Assembly (NCBI GenBank): GCA_009773415.1
Contig: WSNO01000026.1
Location: 1 to 35,245 of the forward strand
From: Nitrospirota bacterium
Lineage (GTDB): Bacteria; Nitrospirota; Thermodesulfovibrionia; Thermodesulfovibrionales; Dissulfurispiraceae
Length of the DNA stretch: 35,245 nt
Reading direction: 5' to 3'
The notes beneath the pieces are model-generated. The model saw only the letters and a program-made list of their open reading frames with translations. It searched no databases and was not told the DNA's origin. Position numbers and translations under genes: made by a program. How positions within the stretch are numbered: the first letter of the stretch is position 1; each line of letters starts with the position of its first letter. Shown here in pieces: positions 6,006-16,551 of the stretch.

Positions 6006-7307
6006 TCAGAGTGTGCGTTCATCGATAACCCGCTTCGCCTTGCCGTCTGCGACCGGGAGCGTCCCCGGCTCAAGCAACTCGACATCAGGTCTAACCAATA
6101 CCGATGATCTCACCTTTTCGATAATTTCCTTCTTTATCGCGAGAAGTCGCTCTATATTTCCATCAAACATGTCGCTGGCTATCTCGACGCGGATCGTTAT
6201 GTCATCAAGGGATTCAAGGACAATCTGATAATTTTGGGCGACGCCCCGAATTCCCATAAGAACGTTTTCAATCTGTTGCGGAAAGATGTTGACGCCGCGA
6301 ATAATAAACATATCGTCAGTACGTCCGAGAATTCTTGATATCCGGCGGTGCGTCCGTCCGCAAGGACATTTGCCCGGCTTGACCCGGGTAATATCCCTGG
6401 TCCGATAACGCATTATCGGCATCGCTTCCCGGCAGAGCGTCGTCAGCACAAGCTCTCCCTGCTCGCCGTCAGGAAGCTGCTGTCCGGTTGCCGGGTCGAT
6501 AATTTCCAGAATGAATTGGTCTTCCCACAGATGAAGGCCCGAACGCTCCATACAGTCGAAAGCAACACCCGGTCCGTTCATTTCGGTAAGACCATAACAG
6601 TTATAAACATCTATGCCGTAAATACTCTCGATTTTCTGGCGCGTCTTCTCCGAATATGGTTCAGCTCCCATATACGCACGCTTCAGAGAAAGGTCCTTCC
6701 GGGGATCCATGCCGTGCCGAGCCATAAAGGTCGCGATGTAGAGCGCATAACTCGGCAGGATATGCACCGCAGTCGTGCCGAAGTCTTTCATAAGTGCCAC
6801 TTGGCGTTCAGTACTGCCCGGACCGGCAGGGATGACCAGGGCGCCCACCTTTTCCGCTCCATAATGCATGACCATTGCCCCCGTGAATAGACCGTATGTC
6901 ATCATGTTCTGCAGAACGTCACCGCTGCCCGTTCCGGTCATGGTCAGACAGCGGGCGATCAGATCAGCGGATTGATTAATGTCCTTTTTGGTAAAAAATA
7001 GCGCCTTCGGTTTTCCGGTGGTTCCGCTGGACGTATGCAGACGCACTGCCTTGTCGCGGGACACGGCGAGCAGTCCGTCGGGATATCCGCCCCGCAGATC
7101 TTCGGAAGTTGTAAAGGGGATCTTGACAATATCTTTCAGCGACTCGATGTCTGACGGCTTAACGCCTGATTCACGGCATTTGCTCTGAAAATTGGGAACG
7201 GTACGATACAGACGAGAAAAAACTGAACGCAGACGCTTCACCTGAAGGTCTTCCAGCGAGCGCCGGCTGATAGTTTCAATATCCTTTTGCCAGTAGCGTT
7301 TTGTCAT
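6006..7307 (-). CDS. paaK: phenylacetate-CoA ligase family (copy 2)
   Basis: This is a 433-residue PaaK-type ligase and the first gene of the minus-strand operon. The ATP loop SSGTTGKP is at about 93-100, followed by NCYGLTEMNGPG and CPCGRTHRRISRILGRTDDM. It differs from copies 1 and 3: its N-terminus lacks their N-x-x-x-ECMP start, and it has KALFFTKKD and IPAGPGSTERQ where they have GYTRND and PIS-GNT. A different acid substrate is therefore plausible. The ATG follows AGGGAG. A candidate promoter lies about 245 bases upstream, giving a long leader. Confidence 0.88.
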   Translation of the reverse strand: MTKRYWQKDIETISRRSLEDLQVKRLRSVFSRLYRTVPNFQSKCRESGVKPSDIESLKDIVKIPFTTSEDLRGGYPDGLLAVSRDKAVRLHTSSGTTGKPKALFFTKKDINQSADLIARCLTMTGTGSGDVLQNMMTYGLFTGAMVMHYGAEKVGALVIPAGPGSTERQVALMKDFGTTAVHILPSYALYIATFMARHGMDPRKDLSLKRAYMGAEPYSEKTRQKIESIYGIDVYNCYGLTEMNGPGVAFDCMERSGLHLWEDQFILEIIDPATGQQLPDGEQGELVLTTLCREAMPIMRYRTRDITRVKPGKCPCGRTHRRISRILGRTDDMFIIRGVNIFPQQIENVLMGIRGVAQNYQIVLESLDDITIRVEIASDMFDGNIERLLAIKKEIIEKVRSSVLVRPDVELLEPGTLPVADGKAKRVIDERTL

Positions 7308-7939: not shown

Positions 7940-9094
7940 GTGCATATGAGGATTCTTCTTTCCATGTCAGCAGTGCTTATGCTCGTATTCCTCGCCGCAA
8001 TCAGCGGACACGCACAGGAGCCGATCAAAATCGGCGCGATTTTTTCGGTAACCGGCGGGGCATCCTTTCTCGGAGAACCTGAAAAAAACACCGTCCTCAT
8101 GCTCAAGGAACAGATCAACAAGGCCGGAGGTATCAATGGACGCCCGGTGGAAGTCATCATCGAAGATTCAAAAAGCGATGAATCAGCCGCCGTACTCGCA
8201 GCAAAAAAACTGATTGAACGCGACAAGGTCGTCGCCATCATCGGTCCTTCCACCACCGGTGAATCGATGGCAGTTCTGAAAATCGCGACAAATGCGCAGG
8301 TACCGCTTGTCTCTGTTGCAGCAGGAGCAGGTATCACCCAGCCAGTGGAAGATCGTTACTGGATATTTAAAACTGCTCAGTACGACACCAGCGCTGTTGA
8401 AGCTATTTATACCTATGCAAAAAAGCAGGGGATCACCACAATCGGCATTATTACGGTCACGTCAGGCTTCGGCGATGCTGGCCGCAAGGCTTTGCAGGAA
8501 ATGGCACCTAAATTCGGTATTTCTATCGTGGCTGATGAACGATACGGTCCGAAAGACGCCGACATGACAACCCAGCTTACCAAAATTAAGGCTTCCGGAG
8601 CCAAAGCCGTCATCAACTGGTCTATCGGACCCGGACAGGTCGTTGTTGCCAAGAACTGGACTGCCCTGAAAATGGGAATTCCGCTCTACCAGAGTCACGG
8701 ATGGGGCAGCAAGAAGAATATCGAGCTTGCAGGCAAGGCAGCAGAGGGTGTAATCGCGCCGCTCAGCCGCCTTGTCGTATGGGACAAACTTCCGGACAAA
8801 CATCCGCAGAAAGCGTCGCTGAAAAAATACTCGCAGGAATATGAGTCGAGGTTTAAGGGCGAACCGGGAGCGTTCGGGGGATATGCCTTCGATGCACTCA
8901 TGCTCGTCGTGGAAGCATCGCGCAAAGCCGGCGCCGATCGCAAGAATATTCGCGATTACATTGAAAACAACATAAAAAAATGGTCAGCCATGAGCGGAGT
9001 CTTCACCATGTCTCCGAAAGACCATTGCGGGCTTGACAAGGATGCATTTGAAATGGTCGTGGTGAAAAACGGGGACTGGCAGATTCTCAAGTAA
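7940..9094 (+). CDS. Liv-type ABC transporter substrate-binding protein (copy 1)
   Basis: This periplasmic binding protein belongs to the type I fold family that serves branched-chain amino acid and aromatic-acid importers. The 384 residues begin with a signal peptide (hydrophobic MSAVLMLVFLAAISGHA, likely cleaved after GHA), and the mature protein starts EPIKIGAIFSVTGGASFLGE. AIIGPSTTGESMAV lies in the ligand-cleft region. I use the GTG at 7940, eight bases after AGGGGG; an ATG two codons later is possible. It is the first gene of the liv operon and is followed by a close paralogue. The ligand is unknown; placement beside three PaaK ligases suggests an aromatic or other carboxylic acid rather than leucine. 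Confidence 0.9.
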   Translation: MHMRILLSMSAVLMLVFLAAISGHAQEPIKIGAIFSVTGGASFLGEPEKNTVLMLKEQINKAGGINGRPVEVIIEDSKSDESAAVLAAKKLIERDKVVAIIGPSTTGESMAVLKIATNAQVPLVSVAAGAGITQPVEDRYWIFKTAQYDTSAVEAIYTYAKKQGITTIGIITVTSGFGDAGRKALQEMAPKFGISIVADERYGPKDADMTTQLTKIKASGAKAVINWSIGPGQVVVAKNWTALKMGIPLYQSHGWGSKKNIELAGKAAEGVIAPLSRLVVWDKLPDKHPQKASLKKYSQEYESRFKGEPGAFGGYAFDALMLVVEASRKAGADRKNIRDYIENNIKKWSAMSGVFTMSPKDHCGLDKDAFEMVVVKNGDWQILK

Positions 9095-9135
9095 GAACTT
9101 TGTATTGATTAATGCTGAGGAGGTCTTTCATCGTG

Positions 9136-10284
9136 ATGAATTTCTTTAAAGCAACTCTTGCAGTTACTCTGCTTCTCATGATTTCGGTATCGTTTGCAGC
9201 CGCTCAGGAACCGATCCGAATCGGGGCTATTCTCTCAGTCACCGGCGCGGCTTCGTTTCTCGGCGAGCCGGAAAAAAATACGGTCATCATGCTCAAGGAA
9301 CAGATCAACAAGGCCGGAGGCATAAACGGACGTCCGCTGGAGGTTATCGTTGAAGACTCCAAAAGCGATGAAACCCAGGCGGTTCTCGCCGCCAAGAAAC
9401 TTATCGAGCGCGACAAGGTCGTCGCAATCATCGGCCCGTCAACAACCGGAGAGTCCATGGCAGTTATTTCGACCATGATGCAGAACAAGGTCATGCTCAT
9501 ATCCGCCGCTGCTGGCACCGGCATCACCCTTCCGGTCAAGGAACGCTACTGGATATTCAAGACCGCCCAGTATGACATGAGCGCAGTTGAAGCTATTTAC
9601 TACGAACTAAAGAAAAAGGGCATTGTAAAGGTCGGCATCATCACTATTACCACAGGATTTGGCGATGCGGGACGAAAAGCGCTTCAGGAGATTGCTTCAC
9701 AATACGGCATTTCAATTGTAGCGGACGAGCGGTACGGCCCGAAAGATTCCGACATGACGGCACAGCTGACAAAAATACGGGCTGCCGGAGCGCAGGCGGT
9801 CATCAACTGGTCGGTCGGGCCGGGGCAGGTCGTCGTCACCAAGAACTGGCATGCACTGAAGATGGGCATCCCGCTTTACCAGAGCCACGGATGGGGCAGC
9901 AAGAAGAATATCGAGCTTGCAGGCAAGGCAGCAGAAGGCGTGATCGCCCCGCTCGGACGTGTGGTCATATGGGACAAACTCCCGGAAAAACATATACAGA
10001 AGGCTCTTCTCAAAAAATATGTCACTGAATACGAAGCCCGATTTAAGGGTGAGCCGGGACAGTTCGGTGCTCACGCATATGACGCGATGCAGATGATAGC
10101 GGAAGCCCTGAAAAAAGTCGGACCGGACAGACAGAAACTCCGCGACTACGTTGAAAACAACCTGAAGAATTGGCCGGGCGCAGGCGGTGTCTACAACATG
10201 TCGCCGTCCGATCACTGCGGACTTGATAAAAACGCTTTCGAGATGGTCGTCGTCAAGAACGGTGACTGGATGCTGCTGAAATAA
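9136..10284 (+). CDS. Liv-type ABC transporter substrate-binding protein (copy 2)
   Basis: This is a close paralogue of the preceding gene, aligned over the full length without large gaps. It has its own signal peptide (FFKATLAVTLLLMISVSFAAA) before EPIRIGAILSVTGAASFLGE. AGGAGG at 9118-9123 points to GTG 9133 or ATG 9136; the ATG at 9112 lies before the ribosome-binding site and is unlikely. I list the ATG at 9136 (382 residues). A 50-base stretch (9886-9935) is identical to 8696-8745 in copy 1. Differences cluster in the middle (NVMLISAAAGTGITLPVKE compared with AQVPLVSVAAGAGITQPVED), so ligand preference may differ while both feed one permease. Confidence 0.9.
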   Translation: MNFFKATLAVTLLLMISVSFAAAQEPIRIGAILSVTGAASFLGEPEKNTVIMLKEQINKAGGINGRPLEVIVEDSKSDETQAVLAAKKLIERDKVVAIIGPSTTGESMAVISTMMQNKVMLISAAAGTGITLPVKERYWIFKTAQYDMSAVEAIYYELKKKGIVKVGIITITTGFGDAGRKALQEIASQYGISIVADERYGPKDSDMTAQLTKIRAAGAQAVINWSVGPGQVVVTKNWHALKMGIPLYQSHGWGSKKNIELAGKAAEGVIAPLGRVVIWDKLPEKHIQKALLKKYVTEYEARFKGEPGQFGAHAYDAMQMIAEALKKVGPDRQKLRDYVENNLKNWPGAGGVYNMSPSDHCGLDKNAFEMVVVKNGDWMLLK

Positions 10285-10350
10285 CGCATGATCTTTGTGC
10301 ATTCGGCTTGCGGACGTCTTTGGCGTGAAGCAATTTTGGTGACCATAGGC

Positions 10351-10380
10351 GGAGGAATACCGTGCTGACGGTATTCCTCC
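10351..10380 (+). promoter_or_regulatory. perfect hairpin hiding the livH ribosome-binding site and start codon
   Basis: GGAGGAATACCGT (10351-10363) and ACGGTATTCCTCC (10368-10380) form a perfect 13-bp stem closed by the four-base loop GCTG. The 5' arm contains the Shine-Dalgarno GGAGG and the first two bases of the GTG start; the 3' arm is codons 3-6 and the first base of codon 7. No T-tract follows, so it is not an intrinsic terminator. In the mRNA it should block initiation at livH unless opened. Confidence 0.8.
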
Positions 10381-11249
10381 AGTTTCTCTTCTCCGGTCTG
10401 ACGGTCGGGTCGGTCTATGCGCTTGTCGGCATGGGCTTCAACATCATCTACAACGCCACGTCGATTATCAACCTTGCGCAGGGAGAATTCGTCGTTATCG
10501 GCGGACTGCTCATGTGGTTCTTTCTGGAGTCCTGTAAGCTGCCGTTTCTGCTTGCTGTGGCGCTGACGATTCTGAGCGCCGGGCTCGTTGCTCTCATCAT
10601 GGAACGCCTCACTATCCGCCCGCTGAAAACCAATGATCTCCTCATAATGATCATGGTGACCGTGGCGGTCGCCATCGTCATGCGAGGCCTGCTCATGTTC
10701 AAGTTCGGCAAGGAGCCCTATTCCTTTGCTGCATTCACTGAAGGGGATCCGCTCGTTATCGGCGGAGCCGTCATTCAGCTTCAAACCCTTTGGGTGCTCG
10801 GCATCACCGGTACCTGCATTCTTGCATTGTATGCATTTTTCAATCTGACCATCGCCGGAAAAGCGATGCGTGCGTGTTCATTTGATCCCACAGCAGCAAG
10901 CCTTGTAGGCATTCCGGTTTCACGGATGATCATGTTCTCATTTATCCTGAGCGCTATGGTCGGCGCTATCGGCGGCATTGCGATTACCCCTATTTCTCTG
11001 ATGGAGTATGACAAGGGACCAATGCTTGCAGTAAAAGGCTTTTGTGCCGCGATGATGGGGGGCCTCGGGCGCGGGCGCGGCGCTGTTGTCGGAGGTCTCA
11101 CCATCGGCGTTCTTGAATCGATGACCGCCGGCTATATCCATTCAGGACTCAAAGATGCGGTTGCACTACTCATTCTCCTTTCCATCCTCTTTTTCCGACC
11201 GGCAGGGCTTTTCGGCAACGCCGCCATGCAGCGGCTGAAGGGGCATTAG
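10362..11249 (+). CDS. livH: Liv-type ABC transporter permease LivH
   Basis: This is one of two inner-membrane permeases of the importer. It has 295 residues, mostly hydrophobic helices, opening with the family pattern FLFSGLTVGSVYALVGMGFNIIYN and then INLAQGEFVVIGG. The C-terminal half contains GRGAVVGGLTIGVLES, the cytoplasmic loop that contacts the ATPase. The start is a GTG six bases after GGAGG, and both are inside a perfect hairpin. A 77-base gap separates it from the second binding-protein gene, the largest gap within the liv genes. Confidence 0.93.
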   Translation: MLTVFLQFLFSGLTVGSVYALVGMGFNIIYNATSIINLAQGEFVVIGGLLMWFFLESCKLPFLLAVALTILSAGLVALIMERLTIRPLKTNDLLIMIMVTVAVAIVMRGLLMFKFGKEPYSFAAFTEGDPLVIGGAVIQLQTLWVLGITGTCILALYAFFNLTIAGKAMRACSFDPTAASLVGIPVSRMIMFSFILSAMVGAIGGIAITPISLMEYDKGPMLAVKGFCAAMMGGLGRGRGAVVGGLTIGVLESMTAGYIHSGLKDAVALLILLSILFFRPAGLFGNAAMQRLKGH

Positions 11250-11253
11250 TCCG

Positions 11254-12198
11254 GTGAACAGACGACACGGCATTGCGCTTTTCCTTCTGGCCGCTATGGT
11301 GTACGCACTTCCAAACCTAACTGACGATTCGTATTTCATTACGCTTATGATATTTTCAGGCATCAACGCGATTGTGGCGATCGGCCTCTGCATTTTGATG
11401 GGTTCCGCCGGCCAGGTCTCGCTCGGCCAGGCCGGATTTTACGGCATTGGCGCCTACGCATCTTCTGTCCTAAGCCAGTCTTTCGGGCTGCCTGTTGTTA
11501 TCAGCATGCTATGTGCAGCTGTCATATCTGGAATTGCAGCCGTTATTCTCGCGGCACCGTCCCTCCGGCTGAAAGGTCACTACCTTGCGGTCGCAACGCT
11601 CGGCTTCGGAGAAATAATCCACATTATCCTGAATGAATTCGGACCGGGAGGTCCGTCAGGATTCGGCGATATTCCGGCGCTTTCGGCAGGCGGATTCGTA
11701 TTGACAACCCCGGCTCATGTTGCCTGGGTGGTCTGGGGCATTTTGCTGTTGCTCATGATTTTCTCCCTGAATATGCTCAATGCAAGGCCGGGGCGCGCCC
11801 TGAGAGCTCTTCACGGCAGCGAAACCGCATGCAATGCGATGGGACTCGACGTCGTCGGTCTCAAGATTAAAGTATTCGTTCTGAGCGCGGTATATGCATC
11901 CATTGCCGGCAGTCTCTATGCCCACTATGTCTCATTCATCAGCCCGAGCAGCTTTACACTCTTTCATTCGGTGCTATTGCTCATGATGGTTGTCCTCGGC
12001 GGAATAACAACCGTCTGGGGAGGATTGGTCGGAGCAGTTATCATTACCCTGCTTCCGGAGACACTGAAGGCATTTGAAGAACTTGATGTCCTCGTGTACG
12101 GGCTTATCCTGACTCTTTCCCTGCTTTTTCTGCGTCGCGGCATTGTGCCGATTGTGACCGCAAAAATCCATTCCCTGCTGGTGCGTCGCAATGCTTGA
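11254..12198 (+). CDS. livM: Liv-type ABC transporter permease LivM
   Basis: This is the second permease subunit, 314 residues with about eight to ten hydrophobic helices. The family segments IALGLCILMGSAGQVSLGQAGFYGIGAY (here beginning IVAIG) and APSLRLKGHYLAVATLGFGEI are recognisable, as is GGITTVWGGLVGAVII in the ATPase-contact loop. The start is GTG 11254, four bases after livH. The 3' end overlaps livG by eight bases, which implies coupled translation. Confidence 0.93.
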   Translation: MNRRHGIALFLLAAMVYALPNLTDDSYFITLMIFSGINAIVAIGLCILMGSAGQVSLGQAGFYGIGAYASSVLSQSFGLPVVISMLCAAVISGIAAVILAAPSLRLKGHYLAVATLGFGEIIHIILNEFGPGGPSGFGDIPALSAGGFVLTTPAHVAWVVWGILLLLMIFSLNMLNARPGRALRALHGSETACNAMGLDVVGLKIKVFVLSAVYASIAGSLYAHYVSFISPSSFTLFHSVLLLMMVVLGGITTVWGGLVGAVIITLLPETLKAFEELDVLVYGLILTLSLLFLRRGIVPIVTAKIHSLLVRRNA

Positions 12199-12958
12199 GG
12201 TGCAGAATATCAGCAAGGTTTTCGGCGGAGTGCATGCACTGGTCGATGTGTCTTTTTCGGTTGCTGAGGGGTCCTTGTCTGCCCTTATCGGACCAAATGG
12301 CGCTGGAAAAACAACGATGATGAACATTATCAGCGGCATATTCCCTCCCGACAAGGGAAGCATATCGTTCAAGGGCGGCGTAATAACCAGGCTTTCACCG
12401 GCGGCAATTGCACGGAGGGGGCTCTCACGAACCTTTCAGCACATCGAACTCTTCGCGGAGATGACAGTGCTTGAAAACATCCTTGTCGGCAGATATATCA
12501 AAAGCCGCTCCGGCTTTCTTGCGGCCGGGTTGCGACTTCCCTTCGTCCGGACCGAGGAAGAAAAGAACCGTGCGAAAAGCCTTGAAATTCTTGCGTCTAT
12601 AGGCCTTGAAGGGAAGGCGGACGAACTCGCGTCCAATCTGCCGCTCGGCGAACAGCGCATGCTTGAGATCGGCAGGGCTCTTGCTACAGAGCCGTCGCTC
12701 CTTCTGCTGGATGAACCGGCTGCAGGTCTGAACATCCGCGAGACGCGCGATCTTGGCAAAATGATTGTCCGGCTGAATACCGAGCGTGAAATAACGATTC
12801 TGCTGGTCGAGCACGATATGGATCTGGTCATGCGCATCAGCACCTCCATCACGGTCCTGAACTTTGGACAGAAAATCGCATCGGGCAAACCTGCTGATAT
12901 TCAGCGCAACCGGGACGTCATAACGGCATATCTCGGCGAAGAAGATCCCTCATGCTGA
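12191..12958 (+). CDS. livG: Liv-type ABC transporter ATP-binding protein LivG
   Basis: This is one of the two ATPases energising the importer. It has 255 residues. Walker A (GPNGAGKTT) is at about 34-42, the signature region reads LPLGEQRMLEIGRALA, and Walker B is LLLLDEPAAGLN, followed by the switch histidine in LLVEHDMDLVM. The signature LPLGEQ is the usual variant in LivG proteins. It overlaps livM upstream and livF downstream by a few bases. Confidence 0.94.
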   Translation: MLEVQNISKVFGGVHALVDVSFSVAEGSLSALIGPNGAGKTTMMNIISGIFPPDKGSISFKGGVITRLSPAAIARRGLSRTFQHIELFAEMTVLENILVGRYIKSRSGFLAAGLRLPFVRTEEEKNRAKSLEILASIGLEGKADELASNLPLGEQRMLEIGRALATEPSLLLLDEPAAGLNIRETRDLGKMIVRLNTEREITILLVEHDMDLVMRISTSITVLNFGQKIASGKPADIQRNRDVITAYLGEEDPSC

Positions 12959-13677
12959 AGCTCAAAAATGTCGACATTTTTTACGGAAAGATCCATGCTA
13001 TCAAACGTGTTTCACTGCATGTAGATGAAGGAAAAATTGTTGCGCTGATCGGCGCAAACGGCGCAGGGAAAAGCACCCTGCTTAAGACAATATCCGGACT
13101 GCACCGACCGGAACAGGGTGCCATTAGCTTTGGCGACAGCGACATCACCCGCATGGCACCGGAAGACATCGTTCGGTGCGGCATTTCACAGGTGCCGGAG
13201 CGCGCCCATGTTTTCAAGCCGATGTCGGTTGAAGACAACCTTCTGCTCGGGGCATACCATCGATCATCACGCTCTGCGCAAACATCCATACGCCACGATA
13301 TAGACCGTGTCTATGACACTTTTCCGGTGCTGCGAGAGCGCAAAAAACAGCTTGCCGGAACCCTGTCGGGAGGAGAACAGCAGATGCTCGCCATCGGTCG
13401 TGCCCTCATGGCTAAGCCCAAAATGCTGCTTCTTGACGAACCAAGCATGGGTCTTGCTCCGATCATTGCGCGTGAGATACTCACTATGATTGCGCACCTG
13501 CGTCAGCAGTTGGGATTGACTGTTCTGCTGGTTGAACAGAACGCCCGCAGTGCGCTGCGGATTGCCGACTCAGGCTACGTTCTTGAGACAGGACGAATTC
13601 TTGTTCAGGGAACTGCAGACGATTTGCTTGCAAATCGGGATGTGCAGCGTGCCTATCTCGGCCGCGACGCCGAGTAA
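12952..13677 (+). CDS. livF: Liv-type ABC transporter ATP-binding protein LivF
   Basis: This is the second ATPase, 241 residues. It has GANGAGKST (about 33-41), LSGGEQQMLAIGRALM as the signature, and LLLDEPSMGLAP as Walker B. The usual switch histidine is replaced by glutamine in LLVEQNARSAL, which is normal for LivF. Its start overlaps the livG stop by seven bases. An 80-base gap follows before paaK3. Confidence 0.94.
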   Translation: MLKLKNVDIFYGKIHAIKRVSLHVDEGKIVALIGANGAGKSTLLKTISGLHRPEQGAISFGDSDITRMAPEDIVRCGISQVPERAHVFKPMSVEDNLLLGAYHRSSRSAQTSIRHDIDRVYDTFPVLRERKKQLAGTLSGGEQQMLAIGRALMAKPKMLLLDEPSMGLAPIIAREILTMIAHLRQQLGLTVLLVEQNARSALRIADSGYVLETGRILVQGTADDLLANRDVQRAYLGRDAE

Positions 13678-13757
13678 TGGATAGGATTCCAGAATTGAGC
13701 TGCTTACAAATTATGGCATACTGATTATTGTTTAAAGGCCGACCGAAGGAGGAAGTC

Positions 13758-15056
13758 ATGTACTGGGAAGCGATCAACGAATGCATGCCGCGGGACGAAC
13801 GGGAACAGTTGCAGCTGGAGCGCCTTCAGGCAACACTCTTCCGGGTGTATATGAATGTTCCTTTTTACCGCAAGACCTTCGATACGCTCGGCATCGATCC
13901 CGATGCTTTTCGTTCGCTCGATGATTTACGAAAACTCCCCTTTACGACCAAAGAAGACCTTCGCGCCAGTTATCCTTACGGAATGTTTGCTGTTCCGCTT
14001 CGTGAAGTCGTTCGCATTCAGGCATCATCGGGAACGACCGGTGCGCCGACCGTCGTGGGATATACCCGCAACGACCTCAAGCACTGGTCCAATCTTGTTG
14101 CCCGAATCCTTACCGCTGCTGGTGTTACACAGAATGATATTGTGCAGATTGCCTTTGACTATGGCCTTTTTACCGGTGCCTTCGGATTCCACTATGGGGC
14201 AGAGCGCATTGGAGCGTCCGTTATCCCGATCTCTTCAGGCAACACCAGGCGGCAGCTCAAGATTATGCAGGATTTCCGGACATCCGCTCTGCTTTGCACG
14301 CCAAGCTATGCTCTGGCACTTGCCGAGGCAATCCAGGAGAGCGGCACATCCGTTTCGTCTCTCTCTCTCAAGTACGGTCTCTTCGGAGCTGAGCCGTGGT
14401 CTGAAGCGATGAGGTCAGAACTGCAAGACAAGCTGAAGATCATCGCCACGGACAACTACGGACTAAGTGAGGTAATGGGTCCCGGGGTAGCCGGCGAATG
14501 TTTGGAACGAAACGGCCTGCATATTAATGAAGATCATTTTTTTGTGGAAGTAATCAACCCTGAAACGCTTGAGCCTGTTGCTCCCGGAGAGACCGGAGAA
14601 CTGGTCATTACTACCCTCACCCGCGAGGCATTTCCGGTAATTCGCTTCCGGACACGCGACCTGACACGTCTCCTGCCTGAACCCTGTGTATGCGGCCGCA
14701 CCCTGACACGCATGACAAAAGTTATGGGACGAACCGATGACATGATTAAATTGCGCGGCATTACCGTCTTTCCTTCGCAAATCGAAGCGGTGCTCTGCGC
14801 CACCGAAGGGGTTGAACCCCACTTTCAAATCGAAATTGACCGGAAAGGAGCGCTTGATGAAATGACTCTTCTTGTAGAGGTCTCCGACTCGCTCTTTTCT
14901 GATGAAATAAAGGACCTGCAGGGATTCATGGATCGAATCAGGCGCGATCTTGAGTCGGAAGTCGGCTTTCCTGTTGAGGTGAAACCGGTTGAAAAGAAGT
15001 CGCTTGAACGTTTTGATGGAAAGGCGCGTCGGGTCATTGACCGGCGCAAAAAGTAA
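13758..15056 (+). CDS. paaK: phenylacetate-CoA ligase family (copy 3), in the liv operon
   Basis: This is a 432-residue AMP-forming ligase with SSGTTGAP at about 90-97, DNYGLSEVMGPG, and CVCGRTLTRMTKVMGRTDDM. The ATG at 13758 is preceded by an excellent AAGGAGGA, so in-frame starts further upstream are not needed. It is closer to copy 1 than to copy 2: both begin with an ECMP-type N-terminus and share GYTRND and PIS-GNT motifs. It has no ACT gene next to it. Its position directly after livF suggests it activates the acid as it is imported, trapping it as CoA thioester. A weak internal promoter in the 80-base gap is possible but not convincing. Confidence 0.9.
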   Translation: MYWEAINECMPRDEREQLQLERLQATLFRVYMNVPFYRKTFDTLGIDPDAFRSLDDLRKLPFTTKEDLRASYPYGMFAVPLREVVRIQASSGTTGAPTVVGYTRNDLKHWSNLVARILTAAGVTQNDIVQIAFDYGLFTGAFGFHYGAERIGASVIPISSGNTRRQLKIMQDFRTSALLCTPSYALALAEAIQESGTSVSSLSLKYGLFGAEPWSEAMRSELQDKLKIIATDNYGLSEVMGPGVAGECLERNGLHINEDHFFVEVINPETLEPVAPGETGELVITTLTREAFPVIRFRTRDLTRLLPEPCVCGRTLTRMTKVMGRTDDMIKLRGITVFPSQIEAVLCATEGVEPHFQIEIDRKGALDEMTLLVEVSDSLFSDEIKDLQGFMDRIRRDLESEVGFPVEVKPVEKKSLERFDGKARRVIDRRKK

Positions 15057-15083: not shown

Positions 15084-16502
15084 ATGATAAGGGCAATCCT
15101 TGCGGCGCTCGTAGCGCTCTTAATCGGGCTGGTGGATGCACGGGCATTGTTCGCGGAAGTAAAGTTCGACTACGGGGCGGCACTCAGGCTGCGGCAGGAA
15201 ATTTGGGACAATGTGACCCATCTTGGCACTGACCCTGGAAATGTCGGTAAATACGACAGAAACTTCTTCCGCATAAGAACGCAACTCTGGGGGAAAGTCG
15301 AAATCGACAAGAACTATGGAGCATACCTGCGTTTAACCAATGAAGCCAAATATTACAACGGGCCGTATTTATTGCCTCAGGGACTTTCATCATCAAAACC
15401 GGATGAACGCAAACACTGGGAAGAAGACGAAATATTTGTAGATAATTTTTATTTAGACTTCAAAAACATTTTTGGTCTTCCCGTTGACGCACGAATCGGT
15501 CGTCAGGATTTTCTTGGTGAATTCGGCGACGGCTTCGTTATTCTTGACGGCTCCCCAGGTGATGGTTCGCGCTCTTTTTATTTTAATGCGGCAAAGGTCA
15601 TCATCAAGCCACACCAGAACCATTCTATAACTGTCGCCTATTTTATAAATCCAAAAACAGATAAATTCATGCCGGTGCTGCATAGTTCCATCGTGAATGC
15701 CAACTACTATCAGGAACAGCGCACCCTGAGTGTGTCGAACGAGACCGGCTTTATTCTTTACAGCAAAAACAAGTTCGATAGTGTCACGGTAGACCCTTAT
15801 TACATCTATAAGACAGAAGGCGCCTTTCCTGTTCCGGGATCTGCCCTCACCACAGCACGGTCTTTTCTTCATACAATAGGAGGACGCGTTGAAGCAAAAC
15901 CCGGAAACTGGAAAATGAAGGCTGAATATGCACATCAGTTCGGCAGCTACACTGATACGGTCAATGCTGACAGACAAGGAGACGGCGCCAATCTCTCTGT
16001 AGGGTATGCGTTCAAGACTGCCCCATTAAAGCCGGAGGTTGAAATCGGCTACGTCTATCTTTCCGGGGACGACCCTGCGACGGCAAAAAATGAGGGGTGG
16101 GATCCGCTCTGGTCGCGCGCGCCCATGTGGAATGAGCTTTACATATACACCATCATAAGCGAGACGGTTTCAAAGGGCGGAGCAATCCCGGGGTATTGGA
16201 GCAATCTGCAGCTGTATCGTGCCAATCTCAAAGTGCATTTCACGGATAAGACCAATCTCATGCTGGGATATAACTATATGCAGGCAGTCGAAAATAGTGG
16301 CCTCGCACCCTCTGCATCACAATTGATTTACTCTAACAGCGGCAAAGAGCGCGGTCACCTCTTTCAGAGCATGTTGAGTCACAAGTTCAGCAAGAACATT
16401 GATGCTTTCATTCAGGCAGAACACTTTCTCCCTGGCAATTACTATCAGGATCAGACGCGGAATGCAACTTTTTTCCGCTGGCAGCTGCAGTTCAGGATTT
16501 AA
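15084..16502 (+). CDS. outer-membrane beta-barrel porin, alginate-export-like
   Basis: The 472-residue protein starts with a signal peptide (AILAALVALLIGLVDARALFA) and continues as alternating polar and aromatic beta strands typical of an outer-membrane barrel, such as YGAALRLRQEIWDN, FFRIRTQLWGKVEI and FDSVTVDPYYIYK. It ends in an aromatic-rich strand (FFRWQLQFRI), although the last residue is Ile rather than the usual Phe. Overall it resembles the alginate-export/porin family. It lies 27 bases after paaK3 with an AAGGGG site, so it is probably the last gene of the liv operon. It may be the outer-membrane entry route for the acid handled by the transporter; that is inferred from position. 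Confidence 0.75.
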   Translation: MIRAILAALVALLIGLVDARALFAEVKFDYGAALRLRQEIWDNVTHLGTDPGNVGKYDRNFFRIRTQLWGKVEIDKNYGAYLRLTNEAKYYNGPYLLPQGLSSSKPDERKHWEEDEIFVDNFYLDFKNIFGLPVDARIGRQDFLGEFGDGFVILDGSPGDGSRSFYFNAAKVIIKPHQNHSITVAYFINPKTDKFMPVLHSSIVNANYYQEQRTLSVSNETGFILYSKNKFDSVTVDPYYIYKTEGAFPVPGSALTTARSFLHTIGGRVEAKPGNWKMKAEYAHQFGSYTDTVNADRQGDGANLSVGYAFKTAPLKPEVEIGYVYLSGDDPATAKNEGWDPLWSRAPMWNELYIYTIISETVSKGGAIPGYWSNLQLYRANLKVHFTDKTNLMLGYNYMQAVENSGLAPSASQLIYSNSGKERGHLFQSMLSHKFSKNIDAFIQAEHFLPGNYYQDQTRNATFFRWQLQFRI

Positions 16503-16512
16503 GAAATCTTCC

Positions 16513-16551
16513 TTTGTCAACGCGTCCCGCACCGAGGGACGCGTTGACAAA
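16513..16551. terminator. perfect 16-bp hairpin after the porin gene
   Basis: TTTGTCAACGCGTCCC and GGGACGCGTTGACAAA form a perfect 16-bp stem with a seven-base loop, starting 10 bases after the porin stop. No T-tract follows, so intrinsic termination would be weak; it may instead protect the 3' end or act with Rho. The 3' arm contains TTGACA, which also serves as the -35 of the following promoter. Confidence 0.6.

Follow-up and report, generated by a model that had tools for sequence, protein, structure and literature searches.

How operons make far more binding protein than permease is an old question, and the known answers include REP elements, leaky terminators and RNA processing. The REP elements between malE and malF of E. 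coli are stem-loops placed between the binding-protein and translocator genes. In cellulolytic Clostridia, stem-loops were found in 87.3% of the long intergenic regions of 5'-SBP clusters, where they set the SBP excess (PMC9045158). These clostridial stem-loops at the SBP junction, with stabilities from -10 to -38 kcal/mol, act as internal terminators and stabilizers (PMC9045158). A second class of described systems consists of coupled genes, in which a downstream gene is silenced by structure at its ribosome-binding site (RBS) until ribosomes arriving from upstream unfold this structure; f1 VII-IX, MS2 coat-lysis and E. coli rpmI-rplT have been reviewed (PMC12548453).

The locus described here was analysed within a window of 35,245 nt, i.e. 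the whole stretch of DNA presented above. On its plus strand, two periplasmic binding-protein genes (7940-9094 and 9112-10284; Pfam Peripla_BP_6, 3.3e-56 and 5e-58, respectively) are followed by a livH-type permease gene (10362-11249; Pfam BPD_transp_2, 7e-31, and orthologs), by genes of the livM, livG and livF types (11254-13677, i.e. 11254-12198, 12191-12958 and 12952-13677) and then by a paaK-type ligase gene. livH starts with GTG at the position of the TTG used by most close relatives, and x-T-V-F-L-Q-F follows the shared start codon in the close orthologs, so the livH start is well placed. The operon is of the branched-chain amino acid transporter type. The close relatives are Nitrospirota from metagenomes, several of them labelled Thermodesulfovibrionales. 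Tandem binding-protein genes (7940-10284) ahead of a single livHMGF set, and a paaK-type ligase gene on either flank of the operon (6006-7307, minus strand; 13728-15056, plus strand), suggest by gene content the uptake of aromatic acids rather than amino acids. With this arrangement, an excess of binding protein over permease is expected.

A hairpin over the livH start

The Shine-Dalgarno (SD) sequence and start of livH are covered by a perfect 13-bp hairpin (10351-10380, plus strand) of sequence GGAGGAATACCGT-GCTG-ACGGTATTCCTCC, in which 13/13 pairs are Watson-Crick and the loop has 4 nt (10364-10367). The SD GGAGG (10351-10355) lies entirely within the 5' arm, with the spacer and the GT of the GTG (10362-10364), whose last G is in the loop. 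The 3' arm, at 10368-10380, spans codons 3-6 and reaches one base into codon 7. The sequence thus confirms the preliminary description, which had reported a mismatch-free 13-bp stem with a four-base loop, pairing the SD, the spacer and most of the GTG to codons 3-7, and an upstream stop 66 bases away; this stop is the TAA of the second binding-protein gene at 10282-10284. When the 10285-10450 region was folded, as had been proposed there, the hairpin was the core of the predicted structure (MFE -62.4, z -2.72). Folded alone, it reached -22.8 kcal/mol, well below the limit of -10 kcal/mol or less for a stem-loop at the SBP-permease junction of ABC importers, and it lies between 10284 and livH codon 7. 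The predicted cost of opening was 14.5 kcal/mol for the SD alone and ~21 kcal/mol for the SD and start, i.e. the livH RBS is occluded by a stable stem.

How often such stems occur was estimated from a 928-kb sample of the genome (~900 crude ORF calls, 499 with a predicted SD). A perfect stem of at least 6 bp over the SD was present at only three of the 499 SD-bearing starts: the 13-bp stem of livH, one of 6 bp and one of 17 bp. The 17-bp case, a terminator-like stem at a probable false start, is the only other SD stem of at least 7 bp in the sample; the crude gene caller yields some false starts, e.g. the terminator-like stem in L106. SD regions of this genome seldom carry such stems, and the livH start is an outlier. 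The hairpin is real and unusual, and it is probably functional. Perfect stems of at least 12 bp are otherwise common in the genome, many of them in intergenic gaps and many without a T run. Within the window, a perfect 16-bp stem with a 7-nt loop and no immediate T run (16513-16551) begins 11 nt past the stop of an alginate-export-like porin ORF (15084-16502) and is similar to other gene-end stems of the genome that have no T run. On contig C7 of the same genome (L077), the near-identical palindrome GTAGGGGCACGGCATGCCGTGCCCCTAC occurs at 12102-12129, 12417-12444 and 14189-14215; with at least three copies in ~2 kb, it resembles a short dispersed palindromic repeat.

A long perfect dyad at a gene start could also be a DNA operator, the 30-bp palindrome being the binding site of a repressor. 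This is highly improbable: the 24-bp core has no other copy within 3 mismatches in the whole genome, no plus-strand sigma-70-like promoter was found in 9900-10700, and the centre of the palindrome differs in the sister species. Membership in a dispersed repeat family or in a regulon was rejected because of the same uniqueness of the core.

The within-genus comparison was made with one other species (G001, the same contig as L042/L131), the genus being represented by two genomes. LivH of this sister is 88% identical, and four-fold sites differ at 94/152 positions in livH and 95/164 in the binding-protein gene (~60%). The intergenic gap ahead of GGAGG, 66 nt here vs 52 nt in the sister, is barely alignable. 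At the same place, the sister has the hairpin GGGCTGGAGGAATATCG-CGGTGA-CGGTATTCCTCCAGTTC, with 17 pairs, 14 of them Watson-Crick, a stability of -26.5 kcal/mol and an opening cost for SD and start of 21-22 kcal/mol. Eleven of the 13 pairs are unchanged, one has become G-U and the closing pair is lost, and outer pairs have been gained; the livH start of the sister is apparently one codon further downstream (GCG-GTG). In neutral simulations from the window sequence, at least 12 bp were kept in 1-6% of runs and 17 bp in <=0.2%; with the 3' arm frozen, at least 12 bp were kept in 3-22% of runs (22% at mild divergence). The persistence of the hairpin despite near-saturated four-fold sites favours selection, as far as two sequences can, which is not proof. 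Shared ancestry and a partial constraint on the SD explain some of this persistence. The search for compensatory changes that had been proposed found none between the two hairpin-bearing species; only two distinct sequences were compared, and their 3' arm is invariant. Codons 3-7 carry no synonymous difference from the sister (0/5 codons vs 51% gene-wide, P about 0.03). An additional synonymous constraint on these codons was given little weight, as the gene has further stretches of 5-6 identical codons and relatives that lack the hairpin also conserve part of the arm sequence.

Junctions outside the genus and origin of the arms

Outside the genus, 15 distinct orthologous junctions were compared from the binding-protein stop to livH. 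In none of them (0/15) does the SD pair with codons 3-7 over these 13 bp. A free-standing stem-loop of 9-19 pairs lies in the gap past the binding-protein stop and ahead of the livH SD at 11 of the 15 (L004, L009, L031, L032, L034, L035, L037, L038, L039, L041 and L045); it mostly ends 18-25 nt 5' of the livH start, so that the SD is free. A strong stem-loop is absent from the other four (L003, L008, L010 and L043), with gaps of 31 nt in L008, 28 nt in L010 and -1 nt in L043. Opening the SD and start is predicted to cost 2.4-14.5 kcal/mol in these orthologs vs ~21 in the focal genus; the costliest is L032, whose SD pairs with codons further downstream. Six of the junctions (L034, L035, L038, L039, L041 and L045) share the stem-loop TTGAGGGGAT...ATCCCCTCAA, which ends 18-21 nt before livH. 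In this sub-group, 98.6% of cells pair and 2/12 pairs have changed on both sides (a small sample).

From this comparison, a stem-loop at the junction is usual and its placement on the SD is specific to the genus. The preliminary description had named relatives lacking the pairing as evidence against a functional hairpin. This expectation was borne out for pairing at the start, absent from all 15 junctions, but not for the junction as a whole, as a nearby stem-loop, differently placed, is present at 11 of the 15.

The 3' arm sequence ACGGTATTCCT is also present in L003 and L031, both without the SD hairpin, and, of the close orthologs, those of this genus alone have CTC at codon 6. The 3' arm is old and the pairing new, the genus-specific parts being the 5' arm and the codon-6 CTC. 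The hairpin may have arisen as a quasi-palindrome that template switching made perfect, which would be compatible with later selection. A chance or mutational origin goes further: GGAGG opposite CCT-rich codons would have given rise to a quasi-palindrome, a template switch would have completed it, and descent would have kept it, with little effect on the cell. The age of ACGGTATTCCT fits this account, as does what looks by eye like an imperfect version in L003 (CAGG-AG-AATA-G-CG facing CGGTATTCCTG). Template switching could make an inverted repeat perfect again even if no RNA function were selected for, and two reports on yeast document the homogenization of arms by this process (PMC8604942, PMC3820800). 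Nevertheless, the stem was kept and extended despite near saturation at four-fold sites, and SD stems are strongly depleted elsewhere in the sampled 928 kb, so that a neutral or harmful one should have been lost. This origin without function was considered rather unlikely.

Termination, translation and the short upstream frame

The 3' arm is followed by an interrupted T-rich tail, AGTTTCTCTTCTCC (10381-10394, plus strand), which encodes the end of Q and F-L-F-S. The hairpin had initially been described as not being a terminator, since no T-tract follows. The tail AGTTTCTCTT is indeed coding sequence without an uninterrupted T run, but the exclusion is weak: a loose terminator rule (5 T in 8) is passed here and also by the tail CTCTTTTCCG of the sister. 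A leaky terminator is perhaps present at the livH start. The T-richness encodes Q-F-L-F, the same in relatives without a hairpin there, and is therefore not evidence of selection for termination.

These tails bear on another explanation, in which the element is mainly a leaky internal terminator or a stabilizer of the 3' end of the binding-protein mRNA. The overlap with the livH start would then be incidental and translation gating minor, as ribosomes would load while the 3' arm has yet to be transcribed. In most relatives, the junction has a stem-loop, with a T run directly after it in L004 and L031, and discontinuous U tracts are able to terminate transcription in Clostridia (PMC9045158). 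On the other side, the Q-F-L-F-encoding tail is unchanged in relatives without the hairpin, transcript ends formed there would fall inside livH, and the single match to the loose rule compares with 0.7 expected in shuffles. Termination or stabilization as the main role is possible, though not the probable explanation.

SD occlusion is the usual output of riboswitches, RNA thermometers and small-RNA switches. Control of livH by such a switch is hardly to be expected at this locus. The Rfam covariance-model search returned no family at the gathering score and none at E up to 1, no conserved aptamer-like sequence was found upstream, where the 66-nt and 52-nt gaps barely align, and a stem of -23 to -26 kcal/mol would be too stable for a simple thermometer.

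Occlusion of the SD at a cost of 21 kcal/mol should nearly abolish initiation at equilibrium. As livH and the genes downstream are intact, this points to opening by upstream ribosomes or to initiation on nascent RNA. The preliminary description had concluded that ribosomes leaving the binding-protein gene would not directly open the hairpin, which overlooks a candidate frame running into the stem. This 26-codon open frame (10288-10368, plus strand; MIFVHSACGRLWREAILVTIGGGIPC and a stop codon) has its ATG 3 nt past the binding-protein TAA, spans the whole 5' arm and ends with TGA (10366-10368), overlapping the livH start. If translated, the putative frame would give ribosomes a way of opening the stem. 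Its counterpart in the sister has 20 codons, with the ATG 7 nt after the stop and the same overlap with the livH start; the peptide sequences are not conserved between the two species. Shuffles of the gap gave such an ATG frame in 5% of cases here and 8.5% in the sister (26% and 30% with looser rules), by a rule that was chosen after the frames had been seen. As a coupling frame, it is suggestive only. A relay is conceivable, although doubtful: ribosomes finishing the binding protein would begin the poorly conserved frame of 20-26 codons, pass through the stem and stop on the livH start, so that a fixed fraction is handed over and the ratio of binding protein to permease is set, whatever the peptide sequence.

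The preferred reading, to which a probability of about 0.55 was given, is that of a stoichiometry stem-loop which gates the translation of livH as well: an mRNA element, selected at the junction between binding-protein and permease genes, that holds permease levels well under those of the binding proteins. It is drawn from the 21 kcal/mol occlusion and the junction stem-loops of the relatives, along with the stem itself, its rarity, its persistence in the sister and the open frame. According to this reading, the junction stem-loop that is free-standing in most relatives sits, in this genus, on the livH RBS. There it would act as a barrier to degradation, perhaps also as a leaky terminator, and so mark or protect the binding-protein message at its 3' end, and it would block independent initiation at livH, which would be translated only once the stem is opened. 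The likeliest openers would be ribosomes that, having completed the binding protein, enter by the short frame at 10288-10368, or else initiation on nascent RNA ahead of the emergence of the 3' arm. Effects on translation, mRNA ends and stoichiometry would follow. Against this reading, the operon is maintained in relatives whose SD is not occluded, and a strong stem-loop is missing from four junctions.

Comparison with known systems

Junction stem-loops are already known; what is new here is the position on the permease SD. The hairpin is like the clostridial stem-loops of ABC importers (PMC9045158) in its gene junction and in its stability (-22.8 kcal/mol here and -26.5 kcal/mol in the sister). 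As in those clusters, binding protein is expected to exceed permease, and relatives of this operon carry free-standing versions. Unlike the clostridial and malE-malF stem-loops, this stem covers the SD and start codon of the downstream gene and is not in the spacer, and its U tract is an interrupted coding sequence. As in the coupled genes (PMC12548453), a stem that ribosomes from upstream could unfold conceals the downstream SD; in contrast to them, 66 nt separate the end of the annotated upstream gene from the stem, and coupling would depend on the unannotated 26-codon frame or on scanning ribosomes. If the preferred reading is true, one lineage has its junction stem-loop on the permease RBS, joining the control of mRNA 3' ends with the gating of translation, and possibly adds a relay reading frame.
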